Below are positions 3,003 through 61,079 of a DNA stretch of 64,000 bases, piece by piece (within the stretch, counting starts at the first letter, position 1; the number at the start of each line of letters is the position of its first letter). The position numbers were made by a program, and so were the translations under genes. Below the pieces are notes generated by a model. That model had not been told where the DNA came from and did not search any database. It saw nothing but the letters and a program-made list of their open reading frames with translations. Origin of the DNA: Phocaeicola faecium (lineage in GTDB: Bacteria > Bacteroidota > Bacteroidia > Bacteroidales > Bacteroidaceae). The stretch lies in contig NZ_JACSPQ010000001.1 in the NCBI RefSeq assembly GCF_014837055.1, positions 113,035-177,034 on the forward strand. Direction: 5' to 3'.

Positions 3003-3111
3003 GCCGGAAAACTATCATAAATTCTACCGTATATGTCTCATAACACATGCGGTAGAGTGACCAACTCCATCCGCTTAGGTTGATAGACTTATGCGGATGC
3101 GTTTTTGCAGG
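3003..3111. repeat. Intergenic palindromic element A
   Basis: A member of the seven-copy element family described in the findings. The left end is CCGGAAAAC, the right end GCGTTTTTGCAGG. The first hairpin pairs TTCTACCGTATATGT with ACACATGCGGTAGAG (with G-T pairs); the second pairs CATCCGC (3068-3074) with GCGGATG (3093-3099). It lies in the divergent gap between rnpB and the HtrA gene, where the rest of 2836-3336 shows no gene. Confidence 0.7.
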
Positions 3112-3275
3112 AAAACTGAAAGGCTGTCAGAACCGACGGACGTGGGCACGACAGAGAGTGGTAACGAATGTAAATTTGGCAGATGTGCCCGTTAACTGCG
3201 GTTAATGGGTATTCTTTCTTTGTTAAAAGACGGAAAAAAGAACTGACAACGTGTACAACCGTATGGATTTTGTTC

Positions 3276-10451: not shown

Positions 10452-10491
10452 CACCCGCAATCGAGAGAGATTGATGATGAAAATGAAATAT

Positions 10492-10587
10492 GGGTAAGTC
10501 CCATACGGCCAGCTCCCTTTGAATCCTCCAGGGCTTGATCGCAGCAAAGGTAGAAGGTTGTAGCGGCGCGATATGGACAGCTTACCC
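10492..10587 (+). ncRNA. ffs: Signal recognition particle RNA (small, 4.5S type)
   Basis: The RNA scaffold of the bacterial SRP, which binds Ffh and targets membrane proteins. The ~96-nt region folds as one long helix: GGGTAAG (10492-10498) pairs with CTTACCC (10581-10587), TCC with GGA, and CATA with TATG. The apical domain IV signature is present: CAGG, ten bases, then AGCA, as in the E. coli RNA, with the flanking CCTC...GAAGG internal loop. The tetraloop region GCTTGATCGC differs from the usual GGAA type. A promoter lies upstream and tRNA-Thr starts four bases downstream, so the two RNAs are probably processed from one precursor. Confidence 0.85.
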
Positions 10588-10591
10588 GCCT

Positions 10592-10665
10592 GCCTCTTTA
10601 GCTCAGTTGGCCAGAGCACGTGATTTGTAATCTCGGGGTCGTTGGTTCGAATCCGACAAGAGGCT
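10592..10665 (+). tRNA. tRNA-Thr (TGT)
   Basis: Acceptor GCCTCTT pairs with AAGAGGC. The D arm is TAGCTCAGTTGG, the anticodon loop TTTGTAA gives TGT (Thr, ACA codons), and the T arm is GTTGGTTCGAATCCGAC. The anticodon stem CGTGA/TCTCG carries one T-T mismatch. CCA is not encoded. It directly follows the SRP RNA. Confidence 0.95.
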
Positions 10666-10716: not shown

Positions 10717-10789
10717 ATGTCAAAACTCAAATCTGCTTCAATTTCCTACACCCGACAGAGGTATAAGAAGATATTTTCCGACGTTATAA

Positions 10790-10890
10790 GCCTGAAAAAC
10801 GCTACCGTTAGTGTTGGCTGTTTCTAACGGTAGCGTTGAGCATTTCTACCCATAGTGTTGACCGGTTCTATGGGTAGCGTTTTTTCAGCC
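10790..10890. repeat. Intergenic palindromic element B
   Basis: Ends GCCTGAAAAAC and GTTTTTTCAGCC are inverted. Inner hairpin 1 is a perfect 10-bp stem, GCTACCGTTA (10801-10810) with TAACGGTAGC (10825-10834). Inner hairpin 2 is a perfect 10-bp stem, CTACCCATAG (10847-10856) with CTATGGGTAG. The outer arms can also pair through CGCTACC/GGTAGCG, which competes with the inner hairpins. It lies in the convergent gap between tRNA-Thr and the S9 peptidase gene. Confidence 0.8.
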
Positions 10891-10958
10891 TTCAGACAGA
10901 GGATGAACAGGCTGCCGCTGGCAGGAAAAGCTGTGTTCTGAAGGGAGAGGAAGCGCAT

Positions 10959-18541: not shown

Positions 18542-18610
18542 AGTTTCTTGGAATTCTGTAATTACTTCTGTTTGAGGAGAGTATAAAAACAAATATCCTA
18601 CCGCTATATT

Positions 18611-18708
18611 CCGAAAAACGCAACCGTTAGCGTTGGTTGTTCCAAGCGGTAGCGTTGACCAACTCTACCCATAGAACGCCTTCGTTCTATGGGTAGTGTT
18701 TTTTCAGG
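18611..18708. repeat. Intergenic palindromic element C
   Basis: The cleanest copy after B. Ends are CCGAAAAACGC and GTGTTTTTTCAGG. The second hairpin is a perfect 13-bp stem: CTACCCATAGAAC (18665-18677), loop GCCTTC, GTTCTATGGGTAG (18684-18696). The first hairpin pairs AACGCAACCG with CGGTAGCGTT (one mismatch). It lies in the convergent gap between the DUF3078 and DUF4838 genes. Confidence 0.8.
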
Positions 18709-18715
18709 TCTAATA

Positions 18716-32013: not shown

Positions 32014-32130
32014 TGTATTTTATTTAATAGATGATAGGATGAATTGAAAAAAAACTATTTTTTAATTAGAGAAATATGAATCTTTTGTTTAATTAGTGGG
32101 TGAATTGAATTTTTGGGGTTGGATATAAGA

Positions 32131-32228
32131 CCTGAAAAACACATGCGGTAGAACTGGTCGGTTCTATGGGTAGAAATGGTCAACGCTTCCGCATGAGATG
32201 AGTAACACTAACGGTTGCGTTTTTCGGG
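32131..32228. repeat. Intergenic palindromic element D (inverted orientation, shuffled arms)
   Basis: Its reverse complement aligns end to end with element C over 98 bases: CCGAAAAACGCAACCGTTAG at one end and GTGTTTTTCAGG at the other. The expected partner of CTACCCATAG has been replaced by CTACCGCATG, which can instead pair with CATGCGGAAG elsewhere in the element. It lies between the divergent susC and TRIC genes; the flanking DNA from 32229 to 32532 shows no gene. Confidence 0.75.
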
Positions 32229-32532
32229 GATGTATGAGCGGCGGATTTTTTTGTGCTTTCGTAAAGTAAATGAAATTTAATTGGTTGTATATCAGAGAAA
32301 TGTCGGAAGGTGGGATGTGGGGTCGATATGGAATATCGTTTTGCTGTTAAGATTGTATGCAAGGTGTTTGCCAACTGTTTGCTTTGAAATTTGGTTGCCG
32401 TTTTAATTTGTTGTATTTTTACGCTCGAAAAATAAGGGTGGCAGTTGGACGCGTTTTGATAAGACGTTTTGCCCGGCTGCGGGATAAAAAATAATCGGAT
32501 ACATATATTATATATTGTGTAAGTAAAACTCA

Positions 32533-46221: not shown

Positions 46222-46276
46222 TAGAGATAATCTTAACTTATTGAATATCATCGGTGTTTCGAAAGAGCGCCTGTGT

Positions 46277-46372
46277 GCTTAAACGCTATGGGATGAACTT
46301 GTTGAAATATCCGCATGTGTCAGTGAACACATCCGTATGTGTAGGGTTACACATGCGGATGCGTTTTTAAGC
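46277..46372. repeat. Intergenic palindromic element E (divergent type)
   Basis: Ends GCTTAAACGC (46277-46286) and GCGTTTTTAAGC (46361-46372) are inverted. A perfect 12-bp stem, ATCCGCATGTGT (46309-46320) with ACACATGCGGAT (46349-46360), encloses a second palindrome, ACACAT-CCGT-ATGTGT. It lies between the tandem MaoC and TIGR02757 genes; nothing else is seen in the gap. Confidence 0.75.
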
Positions 46373-46466
46373 GCGGGCATGGATTGCGTGTTCTGCTTCC
46401 GGCAAGGTAAAAACAGGGAGGGGGAGACGTGATTCATGCCTGACTTTTATGGGATAGAAATTAGTT

Positions 46467-51738: not shown

Positions 51739-52959
51739 ATGGAAAATATTTTTAATAAACTTAAAGGGCATCCGCATGTTAAAGCGGAGACTACGTATGC
51801 GATATTGTTTGCGGTAGGTTTCTGTCATTTGTTGAATGACATGATTCAGTCGGTCATTCCGGCGATGTACCCCATTTTAAAGGATAACTTGGGGCTGACG
51901 TTTGCCCAGATAGGTGTTATTACATTGGTCTTTCAATTAACTTCTTCTATTTTCCAACCCTTTGTGGGCCGTTATGCCGACAAGCATCCGCAGCCTTACT
52001 CATTGTCTGCCGGGATGTGTTTTACGCTGGTTGGCTTGTTGTGTCTGGCTTTTTCGTCTCATTTTTTTACCATCCTTTTTGCCGTTGCGATTATTGGTTG
52101 CGGCTCTTCGGTATTTCATCCGGAGGCTTCACGGGTGGCACAGATGGCATCGGGCGGACGGAAAAGTCTGGCTCAGTCCATCTTTCAGGTAGGGGGGAAT
52201 GGAGGCAGTGCCATCGGTCCGCTGTTGGCTGCGTTGATCATCCTTCCTTATGGCCAACATGCCGTGGGATGGTTTGCGGTAGCGGCATTGCTTGCCTCTG
52301 CCATCTTGGTGAGGGTGGGAAGTTGGTATAGCCTGATGCTCGCCAGCGCGGGAGCGTTGAAGCGTGCGCGGCAGACGGTGGCTTGCAATTTGTCGGAAAG
52401 CCGCATACGCTGGGCGTTGGCTATACTGGTAATCATGATATTCTCGAAATATTTCTTTAATGCCTGCATGACAAGTTACTTTACGTTTTTCCTGATTGAG
52501 AAATTCGGACTCACGGTACAGCAGTCGCAGTTTTGTCTTTTCGCTTATTTGGCGGCATTCGCCGCAGGAACACTCCTCGGAGGATTTATGGGAGACCGTT
52601 ACGGGCGAAAGTATGTGATTTTGTTCTCCATCCTCGGCGCTGCTCCGTTTACGCTGGCGTTGCCTTACCTGAATTTGTTTTGGACGCTCGTTGTGGCTAT
52701 CCTTATCGGACTGATTATTTCATCGGCTTTTTCAGCCATTGTAGTGTATGCCACCGACTTGAAACCCGATAAGGTAGGAATGATTGCAGGTGTGTTTTTC
52801 GGACTGATGTTCGGGCTGGGAGGAATCGGTTCTGCCTTTTTCGGATGGTTGGCAGATAAGACCAGTATCGAGTTTATTTTCCGCATCAGTACATGGCTGC
52901 CTTTGCTGGGTGTTATCGCTGTCTTTTTGCCGAACACAAAGTCGGTAAATAACGCCTGA
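51739..52959 (+). CDS. MFS transporter of the fosmidomycin-resistance (Fsr) type
   Basis: A 406-residue inner-membrane exporter with 12 predicted helices. The N-terminus FAVGFCHLLNDMIQSVIPAMYP and the CGSSVFHPEASRVAQ segment are typical of the Fsr subgroup; GDRYGRKYVILFS is the standard MFS loop motif. The substrate is unknown; resistance to fosmidomycin is a family-based guess. Its last codons run into element F: the TGA stop at 52957-52959 is part of the element's CCTGAAAAC end. Confidence 0.9.
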   Translation: MENIFNKLKGHPHVKAETTYAILFAVGFCHLLNDMIQSVIPAMYPILKDNLGLTFAQIGVITLVFQLTSSIFQPFVGRYADKHPQPYSLSAGMCFTLVGLLCLAFSSHFFTILFAVAIIGCGSSVFHPEASRVAQMASGGRKSLAQSIFQVGGNGGSAIGPLLAALIILPYGQHAVGWFAVAALLASAILVRVGSWYSLMLASAGALKRARQTVACNLSESRIRWALAILVIMIFSKYFFNACMTSYFTFFLIEKFGLTVQQSQFCLFAYLAAFAAGTLLGGFMGDRYGRKYVILFSILGAAPFTLALPYLNLFWTLVVAILIGLIISSAFSAIVVYATDLKPDKVGMIAGVFFGLMFGLGGIGSAFFGWLADKTSIEFIFRISTWLPLLGVIAVFLPNTKSVNNA

Positions 52960-53050
52960 AAACACTCCGAATAGAAACCTGTTACACATGCGTTAGAATG
53001 GTCGAAGATATGCGGTTGTGTTATGCAAAACATGCGGTTGCGTTTTGACG
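52954..53050. repeat. Intergenic palindromic element F, overlapping two coding ends
   Basis: The left end GCCTGAAAACAC contains the MFS stop codon. The right part holds ACATGCGGTTGCGTTTT, containing both candidate ogt start codons. Arms ACACATGCG and ATGCGG repeats relate it to elements A and E, but the internal pairing is degraded. Confidence 0.65.
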
Positions 53051-53346
53051 AGTTTCGTCGGGGTGTTTATGCGGTAGTAATGGCTGTTCCTTGTGGTAAG
53101 GTTATCACTTACGGGCAGGTGGCGCAACTGGCGGGTTATCCTCGCCATGCGCGCATGGTAGGGCGCGTGTTGCGCGATGCGCCTGCTTCGTCCGGGCTTC
53201 CTTGCCACCGTGTGGTAAACAGTGTCGGGCGGACGGCTCCGCACTGGGAGGAACAAAGAAACCTGCTTGAAGCCGAAGGGGTGGTTTTCCGAAGCAACGG
53301 ATGTGTGAATATGGGAATTTGTCGGTGGAATTTTACCGACGAATAG
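53023..53346 (+). CDS. ogt: Short O6-alkylguanine-DNA alkyltransferase family protein (MGMT/Ogt C-terminal domain)
   Basis: Only the ~85-residue active-site domain of the alkyltransferase family is present (107 residues in all). The motif GLPCHRVVNSVG is intact with Cys61, so it is of the active PCHR type rather than the alkyltransferase-like PWHR type. GKVITYGQVAQLAG is the DNA-binding helix-turn-helix and its arginine-finger region follows. There is no N-terminal ribonuclease-like domain. Starts at 53023 or 53032 both lie inside element F, so the first 5-8 residues (MRLRF...) are encoded by repeat DNA. uvrA follows after 51 bases. Confidence 0.88.
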   Translation: MQNMRLRFDEFRRGVYAVVMAVPCGKVITYGQVAQLAGYPRHARMVGRVLRDAPASSGLPCHRVVNSVGRTAPHWEEQRNLLEAEGVVFRSNGCVNMGICRWNFTDE

Positions 53347-53356
53347 ATTTTTTCAG

Positions 53357-53364
53357 TAGTTTTG
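53357..53364 (+). promoter_or_regulatory. -7 box of uvrA
   Basis: TAGTTTTG fits TAnnTTTG, 33 bases before the uvrA ATG and just after the ogt stop. Confidence 0.6.
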
Positions 53365-53397
53365 CAAAGATGTTATTTACCCGGTTAAAAAGAACGC

Positions 53398-56226
53398 ATG
53401 ACAGACGATAAAGAAACAATCAGTGTGCTGGGCGCACGTGTACATAATCTGAAAAATATAGATGTAGAGATTCCACGAAACAGCCTTACCGTGATAACGG
53501 GGCTGAGCGGAAGCGGGAAATCGTCGTTGGCTTTCGATACGATTTTTGCGGAAGGACAGCGGAGGTATATCGAAACTTTCTCGGCTTACGCCCGTAATTT
53601 CTTGGGAGGAATGGAGCGTCCGGACGTGGATAAAATAACCGGATTAAGTCCGGTTATTTCCATCGAACAGAAAACCACGAACAAGAATCCGCGTTCTACC
53701 GTAGGTACCACCACCGAAATTTACGATTACCTGCGTTTGCTTTTCGCTCGTGCCGGAACAGCCTATTCGTATCTGTCGGGCGAGAAGATGGTGAAATATA
53801 CCGAAGAACAGATATTAGACCTCATCCGTAAAGATTACAAGGGGAAACGAATCTATATATTGGCGCCGTTGGTGCGTACCCGCAAGGGACACTACAAAGA
53901 ACTCTTTGAGCAGGTGCGCAAGAAAGGATATTTGTACGTGCGTGTAGACGGCGAAATAAAAGAGATAGTCCACGGGATGAAGCTCGACCGTTATAAGAAT
54001 CACGACATCGAAGTGGTGATAGATAAAACGGTGGTGACTGAAAAGGAAGAAAAACGGCTGAAGCAAAGCGTGGAAACGGCGATGAGGCAGGGCGACGGGC
54101 TGCTGATGATACTGGACGCGCAGACAGAAAGCGTGCGTCATTACAGCAAACGCCTGATGTGTCCTGTTACGGGCTTGTCGTATAAAGAGCCTGCGCCTCA
54201 TAATTTTTCGTTCAACTCGCCGCAGGGAGCTTGTCCGCGCTGTAAAGGGCTGGGTTACGTTAATCAGATTGATGTGGATAAGGTAATCCCCGACCGTTCG
54301 CTGTCGATTTACGAAGGCGCCATCGCTCCGCTGGGGAAATACCGGAGCGTTATGATATTTTGGCAGATAGACGCGCTGTTAGAGCGTTATGAGTTTACGC
54401 TGAAAACACCGGTCGACCAACTGCCGGAGGATGTCATCAATGAAATTCTGTATGGGTGCGACGAGCGTTTGAAGATAAAAGGCTCTTTGCTCCATTCATC
54501 TTCTGATTATTTTGTGGCTTACGAAGGCATCGTGAAATATATCCAGATGATGCAGGAGAAAGATGCTTCTGCCACTGCGCAAAAGTGGGCAGAACAGTTT
54601 GCGAAAACCGACGTTTGTCCGGAGTGTAAGGGTGCGCGTCTGAACAAAGAAGCCCTTTACTTCCGGATTCACGATAAAAACATCTACCAGTTGGCTACGA
54701 TGGACGTAAGCGAACTGTATGAATGGCTGCTTCACGTGGAGCCTCATTTGGAAGAAAAACAGCGGCGGATAGCCGAAGAGATACTGAAAGAAATCCGTAC
54801 GCGACTGAAATTCCTGCTCGACGTTGGGCTTGATTACTTGTCGCTGAACCGTTCGTCGGTCAGTCTTTCGGGCGGAGAGAGCCAGCGCATCCGCTTGGCT
54901 ACTCAGATCGGTTCGCAACTGGTGAACGTGCTTTATATCCTCGACGAGCCGAGCATCGGACTGCACCAGCGCGATAATATCCGTCTGATAAACTCGCTGA
55001 AAGAACTGCGCGACTTGGGCAATTCGGTAATCGTGGTAGAGCATGACAAAGACATGATGCTTGCCGCCGATTACATCGTGGATATGGGGCCGAAAGCAGG
55101 CAGACTGGGCGGCGAAGTGGTATTTGCCGGTACGCCCGAAGAAATGTTGAAAACCGATACCCTGACCTCGCAATACCTGAACGGGAAGATGAAGATAGAA
55201 TTGCCTGCCGAGCGGCGTAAGGGCAACGGCAAATCGTTGTGGCTGCGCGGGGCAAGAGGCAATAACCTGAAAGGGGTGGATGTAGAGTTCCCGTTGGGCA
55301 AACTGATTTGCGTGACGGGGGTTTCGGGCAGTGGAAAGTCGACACTGATAAATGATACCTTGCAACCCATCTTGTCGCAACACTTCTATCGCTCGCTGCA
55401 AGACCCTCTGCCTTACGATGCTGTGGAAGGACTGGAGTACATTGATAAGGTGGTGAATGTAGACCAATCTCCGCTGGGGCGTACCCCTCGTTCCAATCCC
55501 GCTACTTATACAGGCGTGTTTTCCGACATCCGCAACCTGTTCGTAGGACTCCCGGAAGCGAAGATTCGCGGTTATAAGCCGGGACGTTTCTCATTCAATG
55601 TTTCGGGCGGACGCTGCGAGGCATGTGGAGGAAACGGCTATAAGACCATCGAAATGAACTTCCTGCCCGACGTGTTGGTGCCCTGCGAAGTGTGTCACGG
55701 CAAGCGTTATAACCGCGAAACGCTGGAGGTAAGATATAAAGGAAAATCCATAGCCGATGTACTTGATATGACCATCAACCTCGCCGTGGAATTTTTCGAT
55801 AATGTTCCGCAGATATTGAACAAGATAAAAGTATTGCAGGAAGTGGGGTTGGGGTATATCAAGTTAGGGCAACCTTCAACCACTCTTTCGGGCGGAGAGA
55901 GCCAGCGTGTGAAGTTGGCTACCGAACTTGCCAAACGCGACACGGGGAAAACGGTCTATATTCTTGACGAACCGACCACAGGACTTCACTTTGAAGACAT
56001 CCGCGTATTGATGACCGTGCTTGAAAGGCTGGTAGACAAGGGGAATACGGTAATCGTTATCGAGCATAATCTGGATGTGATAAAGATGGCAGATTATATT
56101 ATTGACATGGGACCGGAAGGAGGAAAAGACGGCGGAATGCTTCTTGCACACGGTACGCCGGAAGAAGTAGCCCTTTCCGGTAAAGGCTATACCTCGAAAT
56201 TTATCAAAGAAGAACTTGGTCTCTGA
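53398..56226 (+). CDS. uvrA: UvrABC excinuclease subunit A
   Basis: Damage-recognition ATPase of nucleotide excision repair. 942 residues, full length. Two ABC ATPase modules: Walker [15 protein letters not shown] (~33-46) and [14 protein letters not shown] (~640-653), each with a signature LSGGESQRI / LSGGESQRV and a DEPSIGLH / DEPTTGLH Walker B. Zinc-binding CPRCKGLG and [11 protein letters not shown]...CEVCHGKRY clusters are intact. An alkyltransferase gene lies just upstream, so two alkyl/bulky-lesion repair genes are neighbours. Confidence 0.98.
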
Positions 56227-60818: not shown

Positions 60819-60888
60819 TAAAAAAATGACGAAACAAACGAATCTGTGCAGCAAAATGTAGTCTCTTCGGAATTGTTTTTCATTTGCG

Positions 60889-60983
60889 TGTAACGCAACC
60901 GTTAGCGTTGGTCATCGCAAGCGGATGAATTGCCCGGTTCTACCCATAGAACAGGCTCGTCCTATGGGTAGTGTTTTTTCAGG
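60889..60983. repeat. Intergenic palindromic element G
   Basis: The right end GTGTTTTTTCAGG is intact; the left end is degraded to GTGTAACGC. AACGCAACCGTTAGCGTTGG matches element C exactly over 20 bases. The second hairpin is a perfect 10-bp stem, CTACCCATAG (60940-60949) with CTATGGGTAG (60962-60971). It lies between the paaK promoter and the broken antiterminator gene. Confidence 0.78.
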
Positions 60984-61079
60984 CTCCTGACCAAGCAGGA
61001 TAATGGTTTAAATAAGTTCGGAATAATGGCTTCAGCGGCATGAAAAGGAGTGTTGTCCGCTCTGTTTTTTTAAGATTGT

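Follow-up and report, generated by a model that had tools for sequence, protein, structure and literature searches.

A diverged copy of a dispersed 22-nt-period repeat at a transporter gene junction holds the stop codon of one gene and the putative start codon of the next

A diverged copy of an abundant intergenic repeat spans the junction between an MFS transporter gene and a short MGMT-domain gene in the 64,000-nt stretch of DNA analysed here (the window), which belongs to a genome of 3.48 Mb. The TGA of the transporter gene and both candidate start codons of the short gene (ATG at 53023 and at 53032) lie inside this copy, at the positions given by the initial annotation. In our judgement, comparison of the sequences makes it likely that a copy of a genome-wide repeat between the two genes donates the start of the second and coincides with the stop of the first. 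More specifically, we posit that such a copy came to occupy the gap, probably by insertion, as a comparison with one element-free relative (G012) suggests; that its right-most word, CATGCGGTTG, together with the adjoining CGTTTT, held an in-frame ATG at the distance from the protein core that is usual for the protein family; that this ATG would now act as the start of the short gene; and that the left end of the element, CCTGAAAAC, would coincide with the MFS stop. The new first residues are presumably tolerated because they fall outside the conserved domain. The junction would be a clear small example of dispersed repeat DNA turned protein-coding at the start of a gene, the same 15-mer being present in two other copies where it hardly codes. 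Features of the locus and the other element copies of the window are listed in Table 1.

Table 1. Positions in the window of the genes, the codons and words of the junction copy, and the other copies of the element
Feature	Position	Strand	Basis
MFS transporter gene, 406 aa	51739–52959	+	Pfam MFS_1, E 9.2e-42
Full-length but diverged copy of the intergenic element with 22-nt period; core of conservation approximately 52957–53046	52951–53054	+	R2, 22.7 bits
TGA, MFS stop codon; element columns 7–9, left end	52957–52959	+	Sequence and R2 alignment
Element word 1, CTCCGAATAG; ends in the in-frame TAG that precedes the second gene	52965–52974	+	R2 register, frame translation
Element word 2, CATGCGTTAG; only 3 of its 10 positions complement word 1	52987–52996	+	
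Element word 3, TATGCGGTTG	53009–53018	+	
Element word 4, CATGCGGTTG; holds the putative start codon ATG 53032–53034	53031–53040	+	
Short gene with an MGMT domain; 104 aa if started at ATG 53032 (preferred), 107 aa if at ATG 53023	53032–53346	+	PF01035, E 1.2e-24
uvrA, next gene on the same strand	53398–56226	+	NF001503, 1392.8 bits
Other element copy, diverged	3010–3113		R2, 20.7 bits (+), 18.4 bits (−)
Other element copy	10788–10891	−	R2, 104.4 bits
Other element copy	18607–18710	−	R2, 103.5 bits
Other element copy	32128–32231	+	R2, 108.2 bits
Other element copy, diverged	46272–46375	+	R2, 24.5 bits
Other element copy	60882–60985	−	R2, 96.6 bits

A model built from four strong copies in the window (R1) has at least 150 matches in the whole genome, the weakest at E 4.5e-7, with 150 of 1,480 first-look candidates scored; the 90 best of these matches were fetched with their flanks. 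The R1 match is exactly 100 nt long in 76 of the 90 copies and off by one or two bases in the 14 others, which were left out of column counts, and conservation is confined to approximately 93 nt with only weak signal outside. In 20 preset 20-kb stretches (400 kb), a covariance model (R2) derived from the 72 copies of exact length that lie outside the window marked 29 separate places at E < 0.01, part of which had gone into the model itself; this extrapolates to approximately 250 copies in the genome. The unit consists of four 10-nt words with 12-nt spacers, giving a spacing of 22 nt; the commonest words are CTACCCATAG, CTATGGGTAG, CTACCGCATG and CTAACGGTAG, and words 1 and 2, like words 3 and 4, are often complementary across the family. 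Self-identity of the family is 0.49 at a lag of 22 nt and 0.475 at 44, compared with 0.21 at 21 and 0.28 at 23. Copies occur in both orientations (41 plus and 49 minus among the 90) and in all four arrangements of neighbouring open reading frames (ORFs; 35, 26, 17 and 11 copies, with one copy lacking a left ORF). By a crude ORF rule 76 of the 90 touch no called ORF of at least 80 aa and 14 overlap one, several of the overlapped ORFs being short or doubtful. No Rfam family was listed at the element copies of the window at gathering scores. A family of this abundance lends itself to tests of mobility or of a part in chromosome organisation. The copy at 10788–10891 matches the element model on the opposite strand too, at 43.4 bits, so that here the unit approaches a full palindrome; a Bacteroidales small SRP RNA directly before a tRNA is found at 10485–10665, approximately 120 nt upstream of this copy.

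Membership of the junction site in this dispersed intergenic family, as proposed in the initial annotation, is confirmed by a full-length R2 match, by control searches with a weight matrix and by conservation of the 22-nt phase. R2 aligns without gaps to 104 of the 104 positions (E 0.002 for the window, R2 E-values being rough), while R1 gave only 12.8 bits (E 0.11) and was too narrow for this copy, hence the use of R2 in its stead. An ungapped weight matrix from the same 72 copies scores the site at −25.7, a value reached by none of 1,379,900 positions on both strands of loci from other genomes (best −54.1; element-bearing loci by R1 were left out, and a few loci duplicate each other) and by none of 3,833,820 positions in 30 first-order Markov copies of the window (best −66.3). 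Self-identity of the junction copy is 56% at lag 22, against 18% at 21 and 26% at 23. That ordinary intergenic DNA resembles the repeat here by chance, as the weak score with the four-copy model might suggest, can be dismissed as most improbable given the matrix controls, the periodicity in phase and a 15-mer shared in register (see below). The junction copy is old, or comes from another subfamily: of 80 copies compared with it, the closest shares 56 of 92 positions, where the median mutual identity within a set of 76 copies from among the best-scoring is 67 of 92, and a BLAST search of the genome with 52930–53060 gave partial matches at just two further places (E 9e-6 and 2e-4).

Both candidate start codons are situated in the right half of the element. 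That at 53023 occupies column 73 and is the first ATG, GTG or TTG after the in-frame TAG at 52972–52974; that at 53032 occupies column 82. The 15-mer ATGCGGTTGCGTTTT (53032–53046; codons ATG CGG TTG CGT TTT, encoding MRLRF) has three occurrences in the genome, all three at column 82 of an element copy, with register scores of −25.7 (junction), 35.0 and 29.0, and in the two other copies it opens only 7 and 18 codons. Since it always stands at column 82 and hardly codes elsewhere, MRLRF is repeat sequence, and the earlier proposal that a repeat arm encodes these residues holds. The start-bearing arm is a minority variant: none of the 76 exact-length copies has ATG at columns 82–84, and the ATGCGG form of word 4 is also present in the window copies at 3010 and 46272. 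Among 134 loci examined for homologues of the short gene, 112 gave a match at E ≤ 1e-20, with some genomes contributing more than one. The nearest ATG, which need not be the true start of a homologue, lies 2–10 residues before the core position in 102 of the 112, at 0 in 4 and at 27 in one, while 5 loci have none; distances of 7 (36 loci), 4 (25) and 6 (21) are the most frequent. A start at 53032 gives a distance of 6 and one at 53023 a distance of 9, which four loci have; these distances favour 53032, where we infer that translation starts. The 107 of 112 loci with an upstream ATG yield 87 distinct N-termini, two of which begin with MR (G012 and one other). An orthologue with the same N-terminus but no element-like DNA would have spoken for an origin outside the repeat; none of the 87 contains RLRF or MRL, and no control position scores like the junction copy.

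The MFS gene is present at E ≤ 1e-150 in 13 of the 61 genomes of the genus, namely the window's own and 12 others, which provide 13 loci besides that of the window. The short MGMT gene stands behind it in one of these 13 loci, in G012, where the junction reads TGA ATCTT ATG and then MRRAVVDIEKFRK; R2, run on 12 of the loci, has no match there. R1 likewise finds no copy in G012 at E ≤ 1e-4 among 67 scored of 496 candidates. The N-terminus of the G012 short gene differs from that in the window and so does the gene behind it, which is uvrA in the window with no uvrA match in the G012 locus; because of this, G012 and the window are not a comparison of otherwise identical loci, and insertion in place is not proved by it. 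When a 10.2-kb stretch with two elements was compared with G012, the flanks of the first element matched different contigs, and no match was reported beyond the second. A weaker MGMT match, at 29–37.5% identity, occurs behind the MFS gene in 7 of the 13 other loci (L141, L142, L143, L145, L146, L147 and L150). It starts approximately 260–285 nt past the MFS stop and reads as a longer gene, so that two kinds of MGMT gene appear to be found behind the same transporter; in the remaining 5 loci there is no MGMT match within the fetched flank.

The initial annotation further held that the repeat supplies the MFS stop codon and, if mobile or spreading, has remodelled the end of that gene. The TGA does sit within CCTGAAAAC of the element, but it may be older than the repeat with which it coincides, and the C-terminal end is not visibly remodelled as far as protein length can tell: the MFS protein has 8 residues after a conserved LP, where 13 orthologous loci have 5–14. 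Two of these loci (L145 and L146) also end 8 residues after LP, with their own TGA at the same distance and no element, which is why the stop is possibly ancestral. It may well be, though we lean slightly the other way, that only the start is repeat-derived and that the element settled just behind a TGA whose surroundings resemble its left end by chance. The endings in L145 and L146 are consistent with this, as are the weak conservation of the outer left edge of the element and the presence of TGAAAA at that edge in only 46 of 90 copies; the recurrence of GCCTGAAAA in the copy L232, as GCCTGAAAAAC, where it ends a gene too, argues for a stop that belongs to the repeat. At least three of the 90 other copies include the stop codon of an adjacent gene with a Pfam domain, a count drawn from the 14 overlaps flagged by the crude ORF rule, 6 of which were translated and 3 searched against Pfam. 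These are a GlcNAc 2-epimerase gene ending in the left end of L232 with the same local string as at the junction, a sensor kinase with response regulator whose TAA lies in the left end of L240, and a methyltransferase gene on the opposite strand ending in the right end of L247.

The earlier suggestion that the repeat may be mobile or spreading is upheld in so far as this is a dispersed, high-copy family. Mobility, though plausible, is not proven: whatever boundary or length is taken, flanking direct repeats that would indicate target-site duplication are not in excess among 76 copies, and the element-free comparison is a single one. A Y1 (RAYT) transposase was considered as mobiliser and rejected, as PF01797 has no match at E ≤ 0.001 in the window's genome, the same search finding it in 5 of 14 known genomes. 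Searches of viral contigs (with one exact pattern), plasmids and phages returned no match to the element. Examined for the terminal inverted repeats of a MITE, the consensus ends, AAAAACnCTAC and GTAGCGTTTT, are inverted, but the same stretches form the outer portions of the word pattern.

We doubt, while taking it seriously, the reading that the family, instead of being mobile DNA, consists of binding arrays that form and turn over where they stand, each with four 10-bp sites at a spacing of approximately two helical turns. The 22-nt period would fit such arrays, as would the missing target duplication and Y1 transposase matches, and four relatives (G025, G017, G005 and G221) have 22-nt arrays with other words. 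The near-constant length of the unit (76 of the 90 copies) points instead to the copying of a unit, and so does the contrast between the many similar copies in this species and the few or none detected by R1 in 60 relatives; with stricter filters and at most 67 candidates scored per genome, R1 finds copies at E ≤ 1e-4 in at least 5 of the 61 genomes, counting that of the window. Arrays built on different 10-nt words, including CATACGCATG and CATGCGGATG, were observed at L183, L188, L191, L193, L195, L196, L198 and L200–L202 in G025, where Tandem Repeats Finder reports a period of 22 in both loci tried, and further arrays with other words at L184, L187, L190, L192 and L194 in G017; some of the relatives' arrays exceed four units. 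It is as if the words of the arrays turned over in concert in each species. The pattern CATNCGNATG-12-CATNCGNATG has 47 forward matches in 11 of 301 genomes of the family, compared with one match in each of 3 of 301 genomes for the reversed pattern. We speculate, with little confidence, that these are an undescribed Bacteroidaceae class of intergenic arrays, whose 10-bp words two helical turns apart change in concert between species as if following the site recognised by some DNA-binding or mobilising protein, and which supply start and stop codons and create new N-termini.

Returning to the junction copy as a donor of the start codon, coupling of expression of the second gene to the structure of the repeat, as suggested initially, is not supported by the predicted folding. 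The junction copy is no more stably folded than shuffled sequence (z +1.0 for the sense strand, +0.8 for the other), whereas six other window copies fold at z −3.1 to −6.7, and at −17.7 kcal/mol it is the least stable of 77 copies, the 76 others ranging from −50.5 to −21.5. Complementarity of its words 1 and 2 is below that in all 76 other copies; that of words 3 and 4 (5 of 10 positions) is low, yet equalled or undercut by 17 of the 76. An open start site was tried as the reason for the lost hairpins and rejected, the unpaired probability around 53032 being an ordinary 0.37, with 50 of the 76 copies as open or more so. It seems improbable that the element acts positively here as an mRNA structure between the two cistrons, adjusting how the second gene is translated. 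Most copies of the family are able to pair: 87.3% of cells do so in two named helices, compared with 85.8% in shuffles, and double-sided changes number 24, somewhat above the 13.1 of shuffles. REP sequences within 15 nt of a stop codon are described as reducing translation in E. coli (PMC12306157). The instability of the junction copy, its poorly complementary words and its ordinary start region oppose such a role, and an RNAalifold consensus of 72 copies retains no more than 3 pairs. By these computations, there is no regulation by folding at the junction. Since the junction copy has lost its complementary word pairs, any effect of the element on expression would probably come from the distance between stop and start, which is 72 nt (63 nt to the earlier ATG) as opposed to 5 nt in G012; a longer distance would be expected to weaken translational coupling.

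No description of this element family was found in the literature searched, mostly without subscription papers. Porphyromonas gingivalis, a member of the order Bacteroidales, carries a tandem-repeat element that is similar in kind. This is the BrickBuilt MITE, with a 23-nt unit, AGAYCATARTATCCTCTCRTRTG, that differs by eye from the 22-nt unit here, and with terminal inverted repeats described as close to those of IS elements in that species; 19 elements are described in one strain, as opposed to at least 150 places here, and one of them has 18 full repeats, as opposed to four words (PMC4596501). Identity with BrickBuilt was rejected because of the 22-nt unit (self-identity of 0.49 at lag 22 and 0.28 at lag 23) and the different sequence. 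The GTAG- and CGTC-tagged REP and REPIN sequences are likewise short palindromic units, often paired, intergenic and present in high copy (PMC3733652). The family described here has short inverted palindromic units in many intergenic copies, while the junction copy itself does not fold, and it differs from REPs in its four 10-nt words at 22-nt spacing, its near-fixed unit length and the lack of a RAYT match in this genome. Repeats that give stop codons are already in print: REP termini are described as often providing the stop codon of flanking ORFs, and some REPs as lying inside ORFs, while the terms 'start codon' and 'initiation codon' are absent from the main text of the same paper (PMC3733652). 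G-rich heptamer repeats of Xanthomonas and Nostoc are also intergenic, overlap stop codons and prefer four units; they differ in having 7-nt, quadruplex-forming units of unrelated sequence (PMC4692102).

The second gene had been called ogt, a name that does not fit, as it encodes a short single-domain MGMT protein and not full-length Ogt according to Pfam and the nearest PDB sequences. PF01035 matches residues 10–87 of the 107-aa form at 86.3 bits and is the only Pfam family matched, TIGR00589 scores 54.2 bits against a cut-off of 46.4, and the translation contains LPCHRVV, the mark of an MGMT/Ogt-superfamily DNA-binding domain with a PCHR active site. The N-terminal domain of full-length Ogt is absent from this protein of 104–107 aa in all. 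Its nearest PDB sequences, 2kif and 3gva, are short MGMT or alkyltransferase-like (ATL) proteins that also consist of a single MGMT DNA-binding domain of approximately 105 aa. ATL proteins such as Atl1 have tryptophan at the position of the PCHRV cysteine, whereas the cysteine is kept in the short gene as read from its sequence. At 53032–53400 the short gene is directly followed by uvrA on its own strand, and ATL proteins act together with nucleotide excision repair; the pairing of the short MGMT-type gene with uvrA may be functional, although the active-site cysteine is kept.
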